From the NCBI RefSeq assembly GCF_964355755.1, contig NC_092672.1, positions 6,200,001 to 6,264,000 on the forward strand: a stretch of DNA of 64,000 nt. The letters are read 5' to 3'. Positions 29,599 to 44,100 of this stretch are shown here, one piece after another. The stretch's first letter is position 1; the number at the start of each line of letters is the position of its first letter. This DNA comes from Antedon mediterranea (Eukaryota; Echinodermata; Crinoidea; Comatulida; Antedonidae). The notes under the pieces were generated by a model. The model saw nothing but the letters and a program-made list of their open reading frames with translations, made no database searches and was not told the origin of the DNA. The position numbers and the translations under genes are program-made.

Positions 29599-32500
29599 TC
29601 ATTCGGACGTATGTTGCTTATCTTCTTCTCTTACTAGTCGTTCTTTTTCACCGTTACTAAGCACATGGTTCTTCGTTTCCATGAAGTTTTTAAGCTGCGT
29701 TGGATAATCTGTCATGATGCCAGAGACACCAAGTCTTAGTGCCCTCTCCCAGTCGTCTTCTTCGTTTAATACCCACAAGTACACCTAATATATAATAATT
29801 ATTGCTATCTATTAACTTTAATTGTTTAAATAAATTGTTGTGACAGTATTAAAATTAATTTAGAAGAAAATCTTTGGACTCCAAAAGCAACAAAGATAAC
29901 ATAACAGTAATCTGACCAAAAAAAAGAAGAAAAAAACAACATTCTGAAGTAATTTTCGGTGGCTTGTGAAGAGCTAAAAAGAATAAATAAAAAATAGGGG
30001 TCAAAGGGTGAATGTCCATGAGCTTCTGAGACTTTGACCCGATCTGTTATAATGCACCGCTTTTTTGCAAAACCCAGACGCAGTAACATTTGTGCTTGAA
30101 TGAACAAAGAAATAAAACTATTTAAAAACATACATAAATAAAAAAAAGCAAAAAAAAAATTTCTTACCTCAATACCTCGTTTTTTGAGGTGTGAAAATAA
30201 ACATTTGCTCATAAGAAGAAAGTCTACTACACTAACAAGAAATCGCTGGAATTTAGTGAGTTCAACGCCCCTGAAAAAATAAATGTAAATTATTAAAGAA
30301 TTTTGCCTTATATTAAATTATATAAAGGTTATACATTATCACTATTATTACCATTATAAGATATTAATAAAAAAAAGCAAAAATATTTACCAATATTTTG
30401 AAAATACACTTGGCATTGGAATTTCTAAGAACTGCTCTTTGATTGGACAGAACGGAAGCAGACCAAAATAAAACTGTAGGACTACCCTGGTTACACCCCA
30501 GACGCTGAAACACAGGGGTATATTGGGGTTCTCCTTGTAGCATTTTTTGACAACCGATTCTCGAAAGTTGCCCCATACAGTTATATCCTCTCGTTCAAAT
30601 TCTTTGACCATATTTGATACCTGTGAAATATAATTGAGACCAATGTACAAAATACAATAAAAGATTGAGAATTTAACCTTTGAACATTGAGATTGTATGT
30701 AAATGTGTTTATACCTCTGTTTATTTCACAGGAAACGATTAGGTACAGATACAGTTACTGACAATCTGGTCCAATAAGGTACCATACATATTTTACCATA
30801 CAAGATTCAAGAAATTGTATTGGTCCATTTAACAAAAATGGAACTGAACTTGGCATAATTAAACAATAACAATACAATGAAAGATATGCAACAAACATTT
30901 ACAATCCATGTATCCCCACAAAATGTGTCAAAGATACTAGACAAATTGAAATTACAGTACAGTTATAATATGCTATATGTATGGTATATAATATAAATGT
31001 TAACCTTTGTTCATAGGATGGGTTAAACAAGAGTGTGGTAATTTCAAGAATTTCTCAATACTCTGTTATTAACACATCCCTTCCTTCCTTCCTCTTTTAA
31101 ACATACAAACAAACACATAACATAATATATTGAAGTAATTGAATTGCAACATTGTACATCTTTAGAAGAAGACATTACATTTAAATATTGGAAAATACAA
31201 ACAATTATCCTAAAATTAATTTTACCTTTGAAATAAGTTCATCATCCTCTCGTTTTATATCAATGTTAAGAGGAACTCCCGGGAATGTTTTTAAGACATC
31301 ATATAACAGTGGTATATTTCGATCTTCAGATTCAGATATGCATATATCACCTAAAAATAATAGTTAAAAACAATTACAGAACTTTTGTTTGCAATATTTA
31401 AGGTTTTGATTATTTATACTATATTTAAATATTTTCTAGAGTACATAATATTGAATATACAAATAAGTTTTAAAAATGTGTATATCAAAGTATCACCTCT
31501 TCAGAAATTTCTAAAATAATATGCAGATTAAACTTACCATTAGACATTTGAACTTTAATAGAATTAGAAAGTTTTGGTAGGTTCTGAAGAAAAAAAAAAT
31601 ATTAATGGCATTAAATCATTTGTTTTAATAATGATAAATTGTTTGCAAAAAAACATTTTCTCAGGTTGGACTCATCCCCAGTGAATGGCTTATATTCTTA
31701 GGTTGGACTTATAACCAGGGATTGGCTTATATTCCCAGGTTGGACTTATCCCCAGGGATTGGCTTATATTCCCAGGTTGGACTTATCCCCAGGGATCAGC
31801 TTATATTCCTAGGCTGGACTTATTCCCAAGGATCGGCTTATATCCCCAGGCTGGACTTATCCCCAGGGATTGGCTTATATTCTCTGGTTGGATTGATCCC
31901 AGGGACCGGCTTATATTTTCTGATTGGAGCTGAACAGGGTACGATGCTTACATCAAATTCTGTCTCTTTGATAGATACTGGTTGATCTGATACTCTTGTC
32001 AGGATATCATCATGAGCTACAACCACTTGTTTGTCACAGGTGAACTGGCAATCAATTTCTAGCATGTCATAATCCAATTTCATTGCACTGTACACAAAAT
32101 TGGAAAAAAAAATGTATAATTGAAAACATCCATAAATAAATGCTACAATTGTGGTGCAGCTATCAGGGAGTTGTAAACTCCCTGCAGCTATGAAGCTAGG
32201 GCACTCCTCGATTACAAAACCAGAAATGTTGCACCTACGGCATAACGAAACCACCAAGCATGAACACAAGGTTATGATTTTGATTTTGATTACGATCAAT
32301 TGGGAAATTACCTCACGAGGTTATGAATAGAAAATTCTTCTGTTCAACTTTTTTAAACCTTGGTCCATTCATTTTTGATAGGTAGATCAAAGGTACTGCA
32401 CGCATTCAATTTACATTAGACAATGAGGTAATTAAAGTAGTTAACCTTTGACCAACAACAACAAAAGTAACTTTCGGTTCTGAAAGCACAAACAATGTAC

Positions 32501-35065
32501 AATACACTTACTGGTTGTAAGCTGTCATTGTGTTTTCAAGATTATCTCCAGCTCCTATAAAGATAAAAAGTGTTTATCTTAGTATAGTTCAACATGACAT
32601 TACACTTGTGATGTTCATTTTATCACCATCAAGTGTTATCATAGTACAGTAGTTCAGGGATAAAGTATTAATATTGTATTTATAATTGAATTATTGAATT
32701 ATTTGGTCTGAAAAGTACAAACTGAAGTTAAAATTCCGTCAGAAATGAAGTTTGCTATTTTGAGTATATTGTACGGTAATCATAAACAAATTGTACTTAT
32801 TATCTTTAATGCTTTATCAATTGTTATGTTACTGTAATTGTAATATCTCTTGACTAGTAACAGTAGTAGTAGTAGTACTATTTACTGTAGCATTTCAAGG
32901 CTGTAGAAACCTGCAATAAAATATTATATTCTGCACTGTAATAATCTTTAAAGATATATTGTCCCCCTAACAACATTTTTTTTTTCCAATTATTTTGTTT
33001 AGTATGTCATTTTAATTATATTTTATTTTATTTTATTAATTTTAGCAACATTAAAACAATACATAAACTTTGAGTGTGCCAAGGAGTAGCAAAAGAGGTC
33101 GAAGGACCACTTTCGCCATTAGGCGTGCCACACCAGCACTCAAAGCATACATTAAAACATAAAACAATGTAAATATGTAATATTAATACCATAATTATAT
33201 ATATTAAAGAGGCATAGTGTTTTTAAAGTGGTCCATTAACATGTTTTTAAATTGTACCCAACTTCCGCATACAAAGGCGTCTTTAATATTGACCGATAGT
33301 GAATTCCACAAACGAATAAATCTGGTTGGGATACAATGCTTTCCACTATCAGTTTTGGATGCAAGATTTAAAAGTTAGAACATCCAAATGCCTACAATTG
33401 ATAGTCAACATATTTAAAATAAAACTATTCTGTAATTTATACAATATATTTGTAATAATATTACGACGTAATAGCTAGTCACTTTGAACAAAAAATACTT
33501 AAATTGGTTTTTGGTTAAAATTAACCGTTTTTATATACATATATACATTTTTTTTTCACAGAAGTAAATAACTTTATTAGAACTGCAAAATGTCATATTT
33601 AAAGTCTGATTTTATTAATCTTCATTTTTCATGTTTTTGGGGGACAATACATCTTTAAACCGAAGGTACATTATTTGACAATTATTTGCAGATTTTTATG
33701 ACTTATATACCAATTATATTCTAATTACTGTACTGTATGTTAATAACTCTTGGTAAAACAATGGCACACGAAAGGGAGGTATATTTGATGACTATTGTAA
33801 TTAAAAGACAACACTCAATAATAGCAAGAACAATCTACTCAATATAACAGCTGACTACAAATATACCTTGATTCAATTAGTGTTTATAACAATTAGTCCA
33901 AAAATGGAACTACTGTAACAACTTATTAATAATAAAGGAAGACGAAACAAAAGACGTTGCATTACAAGATCAGTCTGCCGTACACATTCTTAACTGCAGC
34001 GCTGGACTAGAATTCTGAAATCAATATTGTGGCCAATAATAGGTAGAGCTGCTGTATGATTGGGAGCATACATGCAAATTATCACACTCGCATAATTACA
34101 GACTTAGTTTGTTCACCTTGAGTGGAGTATAACGGTACGTTCTAAATTGGCTGATAGAGTACCGGTACTGGTAGAATACAAAATAGTTTAATATTTATGA
34201 AAAGCTGATATAATTTATGAAATTAATCATGAACAGATTATGGACACTCTTTCACAATATTTTAACATTGGTTATTACCCAGTATATTATATGATTGACG
34301 CCACGGCTGTAGAAGGAAGTGACTAGCATTCGGGGAACCTTCTATCATGGGTTTACTCAGAAAAATCTTCCTAAGTGTCCACCCAGTTTCAATTATCAAT
34401 GATGATTATTTTGTCACCCAAATAGCAAGAATTTGCAATATTTATTACTTATCGGCAATTTCAGTAAGGAATGCGGCTATTAGATCATCATGCATTTATT
34501 GCGAATGGGTACGAGTGCTTGACCGCTAACGATGATCCTGCGGTGTTTTTCAGAAGTGCTTATTCGACATCATTTCGGCTAGATCTAGGCCTAGTTTAGT
34601 AGTGGTTATAAGTGCGAAACAACAAGTGACAAAAAGAAAATAGCATCATTTAAATTATTAATTAGTTCTAAGTATGGACAAACAAATCATATTTTTTAGG
34701 CCGACCACCTAATTATTAAATAATAATTATTATTTGATTATTAAATTAAAGTTTAACACCGTGTAACATTAGGATAGAGTGAAAGATGTTTAATAAAATA
34801 CAAAATTTACATTTTTAAACAGTATTTAGTCGCCGGTACATATATTAAATACACCGGCTAGGCTAGAAGCTTCTTTTCTAAGCAACATTACACTTGTTTT
34901 CTTACCTCCTCGATGAGCAATAAGTCGGCAACCATGACATCGCGATTTGCGGAATTTCAGACTTTTTTTGCGATGGACTAGTGAAGGAAACCGAAGTAAA
35001 ACAAGTGAAATAACTGTATAGCCACCAAAAAGTGAGAGCGGTATTGCTATTGAATAGACCGACAT
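29599..35065 (-). CDS. GDPD1: GDPD1/GDPD3-like lysophospholipase D (complete)
   Basis: Minus-strand coding exons, 5' to 3': 35065-34906, 32554-32512, 32087-31952, 31583-31538, 31350-31226, 30620-30391, 30270-30168, 29784-29599. They join to 342 aa; human GDPD1 is 314. An N-terminal membrane anchor (IAIPLSLFGGYTVISLVLL) is followed by the GDPD catalytic barrel: AHRGG (H51), NLENT, MLEIDCQF (E78, D80), VVVAHDD (H93), PLNIDIK, TVWGNFRESVVKKCYKENP, GLLPFCPIKEQFLEIPMPS and VYLWVLNEEDDWERALRLGV. The expected catalytic His/Glu/Asp/His set is intact. The family hydrolyses lysophospholipids and N-acyl-lysophospholipids at ER membranes (known). An upstream in-frame ATG exists, but the chosen start aligns with vertebrate proteins. 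The C-terminus has a charged extension after MTDYPTQLKNF. GDPD1 versus GDPD3 cannot be settled by eye. Confidence 0.95.
31663..31927. repeat. 37-bp minisatellite, about seven units, in GDPD intron 3
   Basis: Units of GGATTGGCTTATATTCCCAG plus GTTGGACTTATCCCCAG, with point changes. The array starts beside exon 4 and ends only about 25 bp from the donor of exon 3 (31951). One strand reads as an open frame only because of the repeat. Confidence 0.95.
32944..33661 (-). repeat. repeat family III copy, interrupted by a retrotransposon fragment
   Basis: Left end CTTTAAAGATATATTGTCCC, right end GGGGGACAATACATCTTTAA. The right ~180 bp is the reverse complement of the left part of 25943-26301 (AATCAGACTTT, AATAAAGTTA, TTAACCAAAAA). 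The middle is the RT fragment at 33015-33480. It lies in GDPD intron 1. Confidence 0.8.
33015..33480 (-). mobile_element. non-LTR retrotransposon 3' fragment nested in a family III element
   Basis: On the minus strand, 33374 down to the stop at 33204 reads FIRLWNSLSVNIKDAFV, GSWVQFKNMLMDHF, KNTMPL*. A 3' UTR and a TAAAA-type tail follow (seen as TATTTTATTTTATTTTATTA on the plus strand near 33020). It is 5'-truncated. Confidence 0.8.
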
Positions 35066-35637
35066 GTCGTTCAATACGGTCTGGTAGTAGAAAAAGCACA
35101 AATCTAACATTAAAAATGTTAGATAAAGTAAGACTTTCTTCTTGGTTTCTGTGGCAGTGGTGGTACAATCAATACAGCTCTCTATACACACTGTGTGGAA
35201 ACAGTGTGTTTGGCAATAACTGCGAACTTTGACCTCACATGACACTTGACACATTTCCTGGTTTTTAATAATTCATGGGAAAATTCCGATCGTCATCATT
35301 CGTTAAAAGTTGTTCGTTTTGTTAGTAAGGTTTCGTGTATAAATTACTATTTAAAATTGTTGTGATTGGTAAAATTGAAATTACTCTCTTTGTGGCAAGT
35401 TTTTTTTCACACATTTACAAGAAAATATGGTCTAGTCAGGCCTAGGCCTCTCAGGTTAGGCCTAGTTTATGCTATCACAAAGATTGTCTGCCGAATATTT
35501 GACGAGTTGGAACTGATTTGTTCATTAAAGTCATTTCGTACCAGAGAATTTTGCTTGCCCTACTTTTCAAACCATATACAGTACAACAATTGGATTAACT
35601 TAAATTATTATTATTTCTTTGTAGAATAAAAGTAATC
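35066..35637. promoter_or_regulatory. putative bidirectional promoter, GDPD gene / TIR-HEAT gene
   Basis: 572 bp between divergent start codons. The TIR-HEAT start lies 14 nt after a TTTCTTTGTAG acceptor (exon begins 35624), so at least one upstream non-coding exon is expected, probably in 35250-35350. No TATA box is convincing. Confidence 0.55.
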
Positions 35638-38139
35638 ATGGGTAGTGATGGTGGATATGATGTGATGATAATGGGTGTAACATCCGATAATGAACTTGCG
35701 CAATCTCTTGCAGGTACGGTTACCTTACAGTGTTTACTTGCTTAACAATCCATACTTCCTACAAAAACACAAATAAAACAATTGTTAAAAGGTATATTTA
35801 TTTTTTATTTTCAGATTCTTTAACTCAGGATGGATTGAGTGTCTGGACACTTAATACAAATAACAATTCAAAATCAAAAGGAAATATTTTGGTAGCATCA
35901 AAGGTGTGCAAAGTTTAAAGCTGTATACACAAATTCAGCCTAGTTAAGCTGATACAGGTTTACACACATTTACATTAACAGCTAAAAACGTATAGTTTCT
36001 TATGATTTTTATTATGATATCATCTTTATTTATTTTTTCTAGGTACTTGTGAACATATTAAGTGAAGGGTCCACGTCATGCCAGGAATGTGAAGATTTGA
36101 TCTCATTAGCATATGTATCAGACACGCCTATCTTCCCAGTTGCGAGGGACTGCTTTCCAGCAATCAACAGTAGACTATCATTCTCAATGTAAGGAAGCAG
36201 CGTGGTTGGTTGTTAACATGCCTGCTTTCCAATCCTAAGCTCTTGGGTTCAACTCTAACATACAGTAGTTCCATGATCAATCGTAATGGTTATAACACAT
36301 GCATTGTGGGGGAGTTCTTACATAATACTTTAATGGTTTGCATAACTAATTTCAAGGAGCTCCAGAAAATAGGTTTGCTTGCTACCTACTGTATTGTATT
36401 CAGTAATAACATATTAAGCTCTGTCTACACTATCAAACTTGTGAAAAAAATGTGTTTGATAGTTTAATAGTGTAGACAGAGCTTAACCTTTCCTTTTGTA
36501 ATTCTGCAGGAAATTGATTCTAGCAAAGATAAATTGGATGTTCTTCACAAACGAAGCAGACAGAACAGAAAACTACCCAATATTACTGTCTTCCATTCAA
36601 CATGCCATCGAAAAGGTGAACCTGAAGTCCGAAAACGGCGACGGTAATGAAGACGTCACCGACGAACGTGTTTACGTTATTAAAATGAGCCAAGATGAGG
36701 AGAAAATAGAGGTTTCAGACAGACCAGAGTTTTGGGAGAATAGGTTACGCGGTCTATCTCAAGTAACATGGCCTGAATTTCGAGATGCGTTTATTGACGA
36801 ATATAAAGAACAACTAAAAGAAAGTTTCCCCGAACATCGACAAAAATGGTTGATAAACATTATTTATGGCGACATCTTTGACCTTCATAAGATGATAACG
36901 AAAAAGATGTACACAGATTTTTGCTGTGGTATTGAAAATGATCCTGACAATTTTTATCACCGAATCCTGGACTACGCACTGGGCCTGCTTGCAATGCGCA
37001 GCGTGTTTGACATGGAAAGTACCGTTAGGTTAGATGCGGTTCAAAATCTTGGTAAGGAAAAATTGGTAAAAGAAACTAAAAATCAAAATGTGTTTTTAAA
37101 TGTGTTAAATTCAGGGCTGTAGCCAGCATGAGGCAAATTTTCACCACCCACCCTAATTCCCCAGCACATATTAATAATATACTTAAAGCATCTTTGCCTC
37201 GTCTGTTTTCAACCTCTCACTACTCTCATTAATTTATTTATGAAGTGTATTAAACATGCAAATGTAATTGTTTACAGGCCAGTTTAAGACACGTTCAGTG
37301 ATTTCAACCTTGACAAATCTTTTGAATGACAACGATCCAAACATGAGGGCGGTAGCAGCTATTGCACTTGGAAAAACAGGTGAATTCTTTTTCTTCTTAG
37401 AAATGATTTCTCTTCAACACGAATAAACAACACATAGAATAATCTAAATCATAGGGACATCCCTATTAAGGGTACACCTGTGAAACAAGTGAGGGGAAGA
37501 ACATTATCATAGACCTTGCATGTATTTAAATGAAATAAAATAGCCTCAGTAGCCTCAGTATTGTCTTATTTCTTTAGGAGTAAAAAATTACAAAGTGGTA
37601 CAGAGCATGATCAGGAAACTAAGTGACGAAGATCGTCTTGTTCGGGAAGCCGCTTGTATATCTCTTGGACACATGAGGGCAGAAGTATCTGTACGATATA
37701 TAGTGGCATTATGGTGCGTTAAGTTATTGAATTTTTCTTTCTAGCTGAAATAGTGAACAAACTTACCCTAAGCTCTGTCTACATTATCCAACTTTATGTG
37801 AAAAAAAATGTGATGTGCCTATATATGGACATGATGTCATATTTGGGCACATCACACTTTTTTTGTCAAACTAGTTTGATAGTGTAGACAGAGCTTTATG
37901 GTTAAAATATATATTACCGATTGCATTATCTTGATCATGATATAATGAATAAAGAAAAGTAAGTACATTAATACGGGTAAATAACTAATCTTCTTGCTAA
38001 TACCTTTAGGCGTGGTGACACAATTTCACATGTCCGTCAAGCGGCTGAGGTGGCGCTAGGACTCATCAACTCGCCAGCATCACAAGAAGCTTTAAGAATG
38101 ACGCGTGTTCTCTCAGATGAAATGAACCGGTTAAAATGA
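35638..38139 (+). CDS. TIR-like domain + HEAT-repeat protein (complete)
   Basis: Coding exons 35638-35713, 35815-35903, 36043-36188, 36510-37051, 37278-37379, 37578-37713, 38010-38139 join to 406 aa. Residues ~5-100 read as a TIR fold: beta-A YDVMIMG, GLSVWTL, ILVASKVLVNILSEG, SLAYVSDTPIFPVA. After KLILAKINWMFF comes a mostly helical region (~105-284) that I do not recognise (TWPEFRDAFIDEY, HRQKWLINIIYGDIFDLHK). Residues ~285-395 hold about three HEAT-like units, one per exon (LNDNDPNMRAVAAIALGKTG; LSDEDRLVREAACISLGHM; SHVRQAAEVALGLI). There is no signal peptide or membrane segment, so it is probably cytosolic. TIR domains act as signalling adaptors or NAD+-cleaving enzymes. The residue where enzymes carry the catalytic Glu appears to be Leu here. 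Function unknown; an innate-immune or cell-death role is inference only. Confidence 0.88.
36414..36487. repeat. MITE family I, shortest copy
   Basis: A 74-bp palindrome: TTAAGCTCTGTCTACACTAT, CAAACTTGTG, ..GTTTGATAG.., AATAGTGTAGACAGAGCTTAA. The central CATATATGG core is absent. It ends about 22 nt before the exon 4 acceptor of the TIR-HEAT gene (36509). Confidence 0.9.
37769..37897. repeat. MITE family I, complete copy
   Basis: CTAAGCTCTGTCTACATTAT, CCAACTTTATGTG, AATGTGATGTGCCTATATAT, GGACATGATGTCATATTTGG, GCACATCACA, GTTTGATAGTGTAGACAGAG. One of the clearest intact palindromes. It lies in the last intron of the TIR-HEAT gene. Confidence 0.95.
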
Positions 38140-38345: not shown

Positions 38346-40351
38346 TATCTATTTGAATACTGTATTATTTTTTATACAGGATTAAATTATTATGTAGATA
38401 TTACAGTACCATGATAAAGTTTTGGTAAAAACACTTTTTAACTCGCAGAATCATGTTACTACTAAAATATATGATACTCATGTACTTTTTGATTAAAGTC
38501 AACATTTTCTAGCATGCATGGGATGGAAAACATCTTTCAAGGGGAGGCAACCCGACCGATATGCACTGTGTAAAGTTGATGGTCCTAGTTTTTTAGATAT
38601 GTTAAAAGGGAGTTGAAATACAAATAGCTTAGAAAATTGTACAGTATTTTTAGAAATAGTATTTTTAGAGAGATTTAAAATATATATGGTATAATATATT
38701 ATTTTGTATGTTTATATGGCTATTTATAATTATGTACTCAGTGTATGTAAATGTGTTTACACTTGGACGAAAATAAAACACAATTTCGAAAAACTACAGC
38801 AGTGTCTTTTGATATATATTTTATTTTATTGCATTTCCCACGCGAATTTCATTTTTACCATTTTCACAGCACACGATTTACACAGTAAAGATGGCAGCAT
38901 AACGTGTAAGGTACATAAACTGCAGTGAAGCGTTGCCTATCTGTGATAAGCCAACAATACAAGCCCTGTTCACATGGCTGTTTTGCCCAGTAAGCCTGAA
39001 TGCTTAGTAAACAGATTAACTGACTACCTGGGCATAACATCTATATGAACATGCCAAACTCGTCAATCGACGGTCAGTCTACTTTGTTTACAAAGTCTTT
39101 CCTTAAGGGCCAGTTCACACTAGCATTTCGACGTTATACAATTGAACGCATGGAAATCGTGTGAACTAGTGTTACGTTTATGGTCACAACATTGAAGATT
39201 ACTTTATGTATCTGGTATTGTTTGTTGGTCTTTTTAGATCATTGACAATTAGAACAACATTTATATGAAGGGCAAATCCAAAATGTTCAAATAGCTTTAG
39301 CTCCATGCAAAGTTAAATATCTATAATTATTATCTTAACTTACATTTAAAGTATATAAAATTTGTACGTGCGACCGTTTAATTTGTGACATTAATTTACT
39401 TATATTTTTTATAGAACACGACAGGACATTGAACAAAGTTACATTAACATAGGCAACTTGCATTGTAGTATTTCATCGTCTATATTTAGGCATTATCCAT
39501 CTGGTATTCACATACAATGTTTACTATCATGTGCAGAAATTGAATAAAAATCGTCTTTAAAAGACTCGCGCGCACTCGCACACCTTCACGCGCACTCACG
39601 CATACTCCTCTGTGCTTTAAAGGCTATACAACATACTTAAGGCCTCTAGACTATGTTTAAAGCCAGTCAATAAATAACTAAAAGATCTACCGTTTATAGT
39701 CAAAAAATGCTTTACAATCGTATAAAATATATACATCAGATCGTCTTTTTAAAATATATAAATCAATTGAGAAATAGCGCCCCGACTAAAGTCGTAACAG
39801 GAGCCACGTAAGAGAAAAAAATTTTACATCCGTAAATATTGATCCTTAGAATTTACTGAAACTAGAAGAAAACCGTGGAATGATATTCAACTCACTAAGA
39901 ACAACAACAAAAAACTAGGAAATTGGAAGATGAACGAAAACAGTGACGAGGAAAAACATAAAAAAACACGTTAAGAATTTCGGAAGATCAATCAAAGGAT
40001 ACGAACCAAACGACATGCAATAACTTTAGCAATCATAATCCTAGAATAAAGTACTTCTTTGGTCCTAGAGCTCTGACAAACATGGTTGATCAAAAGTTAC
40101 TGTTTAAAAATTACAAATTACACCAAAGGTCAGATAAACTGTATATACGCGGTATACGTTAACACAATATAATCAAGGTGTTAAAAAGCTGAATGCAAAA
40201 ACTGAGCATGGATATAGTGTTGATAAGCATAAACATTGATACCTAAGCAGTGTAATTAAGCCTCTTTCAAGCTATACCTTCGCCTTATCCCAGGCAAGAA
40301 AGTGACTGCAAACGGCCGAAACTCTTAGATCGTGGCCCATATCGCGGTGGC

Positions 40352-41196: not shown

Positions 41197-44100
41197 TCAT
41201 AAATGTGACTCTATAACACCTCTAGCTGCTAAAGTCTTGTTCGTTCCATCGTTACGCCCATCTTCATAACCAGAATCATGTTGAGTTGGGGAGACGGAAT
41301 CTATGCTACTAAAGGAATAATCACGTTCGGTGGGCCTGGCTTGGGCTTTGACGATCTTGGGCCTGTCCATGCAGTATTCCAGCCTATCTTCAAGATCGGG
41401 CATGGAGAAACAGCGCCCATCTCGACGCGAGTTCGATTTTTTGGACCTCAGTACAACATTGGTTTGATGATGAATTGGCAGCGGTATCCTGGTGGGTCTG
41501 TCGCTAGGCACTGGTTTTTCTTTACGAGGCGGAGTATTAAGTCTTGCTTCTATCTTTAAATGACTAGGTACAGGGAAACATGGCCTGATGCGTGACAACG
41601 ATGAGTCTGATTCTACACTAGAGCTCAGATGATTTGAATCATCCCTGTCAGATAGGTAACGTGACCTAGGAACAGACATTCCATTGGAGTACATATCTGG
41701 CTCTGTGTGACAACTCCGACTACGTACAGTACCATTACCCCTGCCTCCAATTTGTCTTGATCGGGTTCCACTGGCGTCCAAACTTTTCCTAACACTCTTA
41801 GGTGATCCTATGCTTCGTGATCTCGTTTCTTCACGTTGAGTTCGTTTCGACTCGTCTTTTGTCTGAGATTTAGTTTTAGGAGTTAGTCGAGGTTTTTCTG
41901 ACGGCTTTGACCTGTTAACTGGTCGTGACCTTTGATTTGCTCTAGCCAATGCTGCCTTTGATCCACCAGAATAGTTCTGATAATTGTAATTCTCCATGTC
42001 TAGGCTACTTCTGGCGGAACTGCTGGTGCTTCCTGGGGCAGATTTTCTGGGTTTGTTACCAGATCGTAACGTAACTTCGGCATCATCTATTTTACTATTA
42101 TCAGAACCCCATCGCGAGGTAATTGCTTGGAGGAGATCATCCATTTCTGACCTTTCTGATCTGCTATCCATTGACTCCGAACTACTAGTACTGTCTAGTC
42201 TGTGTCGACCATCATCGCCTCGTGAGACCATAATCATTGATTTGTCTTTTACATTTCCAGAACTAGAGTTTCGACCCAACGAGGCTTTGGCAGATGCAGG
42301 TCGGGATCGTTTTACTGCCTTTGGAGAGCCAATATTTAAGGTATCTTTAAGCCTAGTAGCAGGACTTTCACTGCGTTCTCGGGCTGAATTCACTCGCGAC
42401 CGTCTCCCAAGTGTGCCGTATATCTCAATAGCATTTCGAGATTCTGGTCGAGTGAGCCTTGAAGTTGAACTTACACTTCTTAACTTAGCGCTGTTACTAA
42501 ATGATGAAGTGGTAGAAATGTTCTTCTCTGGGCTTGTTGGACAACTGACTGCCTGCCGGTTTTCCGGATCACTGCTACGAGAGCGGGATACTTGGTTCTT
42601 CTTGCGATATTGCTTAAGATATTCGGATGTTGCAGTCACTGGTGTTGACTTCTTTTCTCTCATTGAATGTGACCTGCCAAACGCAGGATCACTAGTTGAG
42701 TTGGTTTTCCTTTCAAGAGTGCGTCTACCACTTAAAGAGGATACTCTACTGCTACCATTCAGGTCACTTTTGTGCCTGGTTAATGTTGGCGTAGACGTTG
42801 CAGAAACGGTTGGAGACCGTTCAGAGTTTAAAGATTTCCGCAAGGGTGACGTTCGAGATATGCCGGGTGATTCGGATCGTTTTCTTAACGATGGATGCCG
42901 CACCAGACTGCTACGTCCATCATTACTTCTAGTTAGCGGTGATGGTGATTCAACAGAACCATGTCTCCTTTGCATAACAGGGCTACTCGATGCGCTATGT
43001 GAGACAAACGACCCCGGACGAGATCGTCTGAAAGGAATTGGCGAAGACGATGGCGAACTTGACATGCAAGAAGACTCCGGCGTGCTGAGACGATTATTAC
43101 GTTTAGCGACTGGGTCGCTTAACGCGGCTTTAAGTTGAGCTTTTTTAATCTCACTTAGTCGCCGAGAAGGACTTTTAGAAGTGGTTGGTGTTTGTAGATT
43201 GCCTGAGCTTGTCGACTTAGGAAAAGCATCTACAGAATTGTCCTTTTTTGAAACACTGGGTTCCACAGCAGACTTTGGACGGTTCGGTTCGGTGTGTTGA
43301 AATGACGGGCGCCTTCGAACAGGAGTCTCGGCAGTCGAAGCTCTGAAAACAATAGAAATAAAAAAAAAAACCGATTAATCAATAAAACAGGGATAACACT
43401 ATAACATGGGTATCACAGTAATGACATACACAACTAGTTCAGAAGTTATTTTAGAATAAAACAAACCACTTCTTTCTAATTTCATAAATTTTTAACATTT
43501 GCTTGTTTTCAATTCAGCAACGTAATTAATTCTGTTACGATGGAAGAAATCACTCAAGTTTAATTAAACTACAACATACATCGTGTTTATTGAGTGAAAG
43601 CACCGAGTGTGTCGCGTCAATAAAATGATATCGGAACATACAAGGATGTTTTACCGTTGTATGTAACGTATAATCTAATCACATTATATTAAGCATCATC
43701 GCTCACCACCAAACATTACGGTATCATACATGATGGAATTCGGTGTTAGTAATAGTAGGCTTGGCTTATACACTTGTACGATGATTGATTGATTCAGAGG
43801 GCGATTAAAGCTTGTTTTCCACTAGTTCCACTAATTCATTCTCGAAATAGAAATGTAGTTTAATCGGATGTCGTAATATTTCAAGACTTTGTGACGCGAA
43901 AAAATACGCAACCATGAATGTTCCATTCGTGCAAATAAATAGAAAACAGGATGTAATAATATATGAACGGCAAGGTTTTCGAAGAGGCAACATGTTGTAC
44001 GCCTTGGCTTTCGTTTGGTGGGTAGAATTGGTAACTGAAGTTCAATAGGCCTAATGTACGGCATCGGTTCGGGCGGTTAGAGAAGGTGATTGTGGGTGGC

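Follow-up and report, generated by a model that had tools for sequence, protein, structure and literature searches.

A TIR-HEAT gene of the crinoid Antedon mediterranea with leucine at the catalytic glutamate position of its TIR domain and a glutamate-bearing paralogue in the same genome

Analysis of a 64,000-nucleotide window of the Antedon mediterranea genome revealed a gene for a TIR-HEAT protein in which leucine occupies the position of the catalytic glutamate of NADase-type TIR domains, and comparison with the rest of the genome revealed a full-length paralogue, PARA, in which that glutamate is present. The explanation that we favor, with moderate confidence, is that the window gene encodes a TIR pseudoenzyme that is retained, next to the possible NADase PARA, in the non-catalytic role of a partner or adaptor. 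The window corresponds to positions 6200001-6264000 of contig C3, one of the 18 contigs of this 354 Mb genome.

The TIR-HEAT gene lies on the plus strand of the window (35638-38139) and comprises seven exons, with GT-AG boundaries at every intron and a TGA stop codon at 38137-38139. The spliced model gives exactly 406 amino acids, reproducing the length, the coordinates and the motif SCQECEDLISLAY of the original prediction, and orders the protein as a TIR domain, a helical middle and HEAT repeats. Exon 1 (35638-35713) contains the start codon and encodes strand A and helix A of the TIR domain (MGSDGGYDVMIMGVTSDNELAQSLA); exon 2 (35815-35903) encodes strand B and a degraded BB loop and helix B that together fall five residues short of those in PARA; and exon 3 (36043-36188) encodes strand C, helix C with residues C71-E72-D73-L74, and strand D. 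These exons are followed by introns in phases 1, 0 and 2, respectively, each at a position common to PARA. Exon 4 (36510-37051) carries TIR strand E, a variable linker, a helical segment resembling the Cbl-type EF-hand-like module (approximately residues 175-262) and the start of the HEAT region, which continues through exons 5 (37278-37379) and 6 (37578-37713; phase 2 intron, also common to PARA) and ends in exon 7 (38010-38139) with the final HEAT helices and the stop codon. A likely polyadenylation signal, AATAAA, is found at 38772-38777 on the same strand. Codon usage in the TIR exons is better in their own frame than in the five other frames.

The HEAT assignment is significant by itself, with Pfam matches to HEAT_2 (E=1.2e-19) and HEAT (1e-10) that extend from around residue 270 as far as the C terminus, whereas the TIR_2 match at residues 15-122 scores 23.4 bits, under the Pfam cut-off of 28. 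A PDB sequence search with the window TIR matched no TIR, and the Pfam scan of the window protein gave no SAM match. The weak TIR match is secured by PARA, which passes the TIR_2 cut-off (75 bits, E=9.6e-21) and aligns with the window protein over its full length with five common introns. The TIR and HEAT identities originally proposed for this protein are thus upheld by the profile search, the latter directly and the former, sub-threshold alone, through its relative.

PARA, the one other full-length family member in the genome, was found exon by exon at C3:34102858-34108330, 28 Mb from the window gene on the same contig, and its model has nine coding exons and 493 amino acids (its residue numbers are counted from internal Met 77). 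Identity to the window protein is 34% over the full-length alignment, with values of 29% for the TIR domain, 19% for the linker, 23% for the EF-like part and 48% for the HEAT region, and rises to 45% between helix C and strand D within the TIR domain. Together with this full-length alignment, five introns at the same residue and in the same phase indicate that the two genes share common descent through gene duplication. In a FastTree tree of TIR domains the two are sisters (support 0.945), with a branch length of 1.49 for the window copy, about twice that of PARA (0.72). Because the HEAT_2 scores of the two proteins are alike (70.8 bits for the window copy, 66.4 bits for PARA), this difference indicates that divergence of the window copy is concentrated in the TIR domain rather than gene-wide.

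Additional traces of the family were few. A lone exon-sized fragment at C3:34022716-34022796, about 80 kb upstream of PARA, resembles the exon at the start of the PARA HEAT region and is probably a partial duplicate. Two candidate relatives of the middle segment or HEAT region, at C4:11.92 Mb and C4:2.15 Mb, contained internal stops and were rejected as chance matches. The introns of both paralogues contain the same short inverted repeat (AAGCTCTGTCTACACTATCAAACT and its complement), similar to a miniature inverted-repeat transposon, at 36414-36485 and 37768-37897 of the window and at about 1563-1985 of L009 in the PARA locus.

The assignment of leucine to the catalytic position comes from a stretch in which the paralogues align without a gap, PARA reading KYC-RD-E-LALAYVSSKPIFP and the window copy QEC-ED-L-ISLAYVSDTPIFP. 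The wider stretches KYCRDELALAYVSSKPIFP of PARA and QECEDLISLAYVSDTPIFP of the window copy are likewise gap-free, as is the alignment of CEDLISLAYVSDTPIFP of the window copy with CRDELALAYVSSKPIFP of PARA. Since no gap intervenes here, Leu74 stands for the catalytic-position Glu, and it shares a column with PARA Glu76 in both the pairwise and a 32-sequence alignment. PARA Glu76 in turn aligns with a conserved Glu in two NADases of solved structure, Cat1 and AbTIR, and this Glu is their established catalytic residue. Across the genome's 30 best TIR_2 matches, Glu fills this column in 29 and Asp in one; Leu is found only in the window copy. The leucine first proposed from a remote motif match is therefore confirmed by alignment with PARA and genomic TIRs. 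Its codon, TTG (36097-36099, plus strand), is two or more base changes away from both GAA and GAG, so a single base-calling error cannot give Leu74.

Among other TIR genes in the genome, one at C6:22754080-22754511 carries Asp at the position of the catalytic Glu (NCAKDLVLADQLQKPIIPV). Clusters of TIR genes are found at C3:5.55-5.66 Mb, consisting of single-exon TLR-like TIRs with a WCNFEL motif, and at C11:5.61-5.66 Mb, where the TIRs are of the SYQWDHQPEV type with NCNKEV.

Changes in the window TIR extend beyond the catalytic position. The Glu is catalytic in SARM1 and in bacterial and plant TIRs, and in SARM1 the ligand is contacted by W71 and E75 within a pocket formed by strand A, helices B and C, and the AA and BB loops (PMC7075850). 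The position of the aromatic that contacts the ligand, Trp in SARM1 and Tyr in PARA, is taken in the window copy by Glu70, which is encoded at 36085-36087 on the plus strand and precedes Leu74 by one helical turn. A deletion of five residues affects the stretch from the BB loop through helix B, which has NTNNNSKSK opposite EVGLQAGVEFLNKI of PARA and lacks the D..L.AG pattern, and strand A reads DVMIMGV as opposed to DIMISYS in PARA. Both the catalytic-position Glu and the intact BB loop and helix B of NADase-type TIRs are thus absent, yet the hydrophobic pattern of core strands A, C, D and E is kept. Leu74 and the degraded pocket together argue strongly that the window copy would not have NADase activity.

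PARA differs from the window copy in having a normal BB loop, the Glu and an EF-like segment distributed across more exons, although both have the same TIR - EF-hand-like - HEAT order. Among solved structures, the best relatives of PARA are Cat1, AbTIR, a further two TIR proteins from bacteria, and SARM1. Profile comparison also matched PARA to TIR proteins of anti-phage systems (retron TIR, ThsB/Thoeris and SAVED-TIR), in keeping with an enzyme-like TIR. Its N terminus, MGSAVSKHKRKR, combines a Src-like N-myristoylation motif with basic residues, which we infer to be a membrane anchor, and a low-complexity acidic stretch lies between it and the TIR domain; the window copy begins with MGSDGGYD, without the Ser-Lys and the basic part. 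The catalytic-position Glu, the normal BB loop and the myristoylation motif suggest that PARA is probably a membrane-anchored TIR and possibly an NADase. Glu76 would only permit such activity, since Glu is also frequent at this position in some TLRs without reported NADase activity (PMC7075850).

The segment between the TIR and HEAT regions, originally suggested to be a new domain of 180 residues, resolved into three parts: a linker of some 40 residues that is not conserved, a helical part roughly 85 residues long, and the first HEAT helix. The helical part of PARA weakly matched the Cbl EF-hand-like domain (Cbl_N2, PF02761; E=0.06), and that of the window copy did not match it. A profile built from the two copies gave weak matches to CBL-B in the first half (E=0.4) and to EF-hand calcium-binding proteins in the second half (E=0.37), and the STIM2 EF-hand match was similarly weak (E=0.45). 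Comparison with the genome's own Cbl exons gave a shuffle z of about 4 to 5 at standard gap costs. None of these matches is significant alone, but taken together they suggest that the helical part is most likely a Cbl-type EF-hand-like module, and hence probably not a new domain. Both paralogues share with the Cbl domain a helical character and the pattern FW....-V.W..F...L; they differ from it in that the matches are weak (E 0.06 to 1) and that SH2 or 4-helix neighbors are absent here. PARA retains part of the EF loop (MDEDEDEVIQKEHYEEF), whereas the window copy has lost the loop with its acidic residues. A single-sequence AlphaFold2 model of exon 4, of poor quality (pLDDT 52), was helical in its C-terminal two thirds, and a fold search with this model gave no usable match.

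We propose that the window copy, which has kept the TIR core strands and well-conserved HEAT repeats despite losing the BB loop, the aromatic that touches the ligand and the catalytic Glu, would bind the same HEAT partners as PARA, or PARA itself through the remaining TIR surface. In doing so it could cap or dampen TIR assembly, or serve as a non-catalytic adaptor; the identification as a pseudoenzyme has good support, whereas the partners and the regulatory role are inferred. A more specific form of this proposal, in which the inactive copy caps or restrains the NAD-consuming assembly of a membrane-anchored, active PARA, is speculative and we give it a low probability; if true, an animal TIR enzyme distinct from SARM1 would come with a brake of its own.

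The uneven divergence could instead mark a decaying gene, in which the HEAT region is conserved by recent ancestry or by HEAT-only use while the TIR domain drifts without function. Consistent with decay, the TIR branch is double that of PARA, the TIR exons show less GC bias at first codon positions than the other exons do, and residues are missing from the BB loop and helix B. Nevertheless, every exon is open, the splice sites are canonical, codon usage favors the coding frame, the core strands keep their hydrophobic pattern and the region from helix C to strand D is still 45% identical to PARA, making decay unlikely in our view. We consider it quite unlikely that the window protein acts independently of PARA as a scaffold-type adaptor like MyD88 or TIRAP. 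Such a role would fit the occurrence of Glu in fewer than 10% of the scaffold TIRs of MyD88, TIRAP and endosomal TLRs (PMC7075850), as well as the TRAF genes in the same window, but a death domain is absent, the BB loop of the classical TIR-TIR contact is also lost, and the closest relation of the window protein, PARA, finds its best solved matches among NADases.

The original prediction had left room for either a scaffold-type TIR or an enzyme using a neighboring Glu. The latter idea is weakened for Glu72, which would point to the other side of the helix from Leu74, leaving only Glu70, on the same face one turn earlier, as a substitute that is possible in principle. Relative to PARA, Glu and a hydrophobic residue are effectively swapped (Y..E to E..L), such that Glu70 occupies the place of the ligand-contacting aromatic (SARM1 W71, survey numbering) and could act as a migrated carboxylate. 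We find this very improbable: degradation also extends to strand A, helix B and the BB loop, all parts of the pocket, and we know of no TIR that uses the Glu70 position catalytically.

Several other features of the window were noted. The first 9000 nucleotides contain, on the plus strand, TRAF-type exons for RING, TRAF zinc finger and MATH domains that seem to belong to more than one gene copy. A GDPD-like glycerophosphodiester phosphodiesterase gene on the minus strand (31838-35272) appears to be arranged head to head with the TIR-HEAT gene; its GDPD match (E=7e-6) lies in exon 31841-32320, and exon 34826-35272 resembles its N terminus by eye only. At 41197-43374, also on the minus strand, a 725-amino-acid open frame with a high content of Ser, Arg and Pro had no match in Pfam.

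Scans with the paralogue alignments, which used short patterns, found no prokaryotic or viral relatives and thus made no recent transfer visible. Our literature search found no description of the TIR - EF-like - HEAT order or of an active/inactive TIR pair. A recent TIR atlas notes that several eukaryotic TIR clades across animal species are uncharacterized and cautions that resemblance between TIRs is not the same as shared biochemistry (PMC13142454). In a 2020 survey SARM1 was the sole animal TIR with known NADase activity, and Glu was present at the catalytic position in more than 70% of all TIRs and more than 90% of the TLR1/2/6/10 subgroup, while being rare in MyD88, TIRAP and endosomal TLRs (PMC7075850). 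The coexistence of a Glu-bearing PARA with an anchor motif and a pocket-degraded copy that shares its HEAT scaffold could provide a direct test of whether there are animal TIR enzymes besides SARM1, and whether inactive copies regulate them.

Among known systems, SARM1 likewise joins an animal TIR to an ARM/HEAT-type solenoid, but its order is ARM-SAM-SAM-TIR, with a C-terminal TIR and the Glu present, whereas in the window protein the TIR domain is N-terminal, HEAT comes last and the Glu is absent. The TIRs of MyD88 and TIRAP resemble the window copy in the rarity of Glu at the catalytic position and would do so in their scaffold function; they differ in having other partner domains and a functional BB loop. 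Ten Aplysia TIR proteins with an Armadillo-type fold, of unknown function (PMC9334734), and the ecTIR-DC families of invertebrates (PMC6321704) are also uncharacterized invertebrate TIR proteins. The TIR-HEAT architecture, which the original prediction could not tie to a characterized animal family, has a full-length relative in the same genome and a possible parallel in the Aplysia proteins. Because loss of the Glu is common in animal TIRs such as MyD88 and TIRAP, and the combination of TIR with an Armadillo-type fold is known in Aplysia, we regard the window gene as a variation within the known kinds of animal TIR protein.
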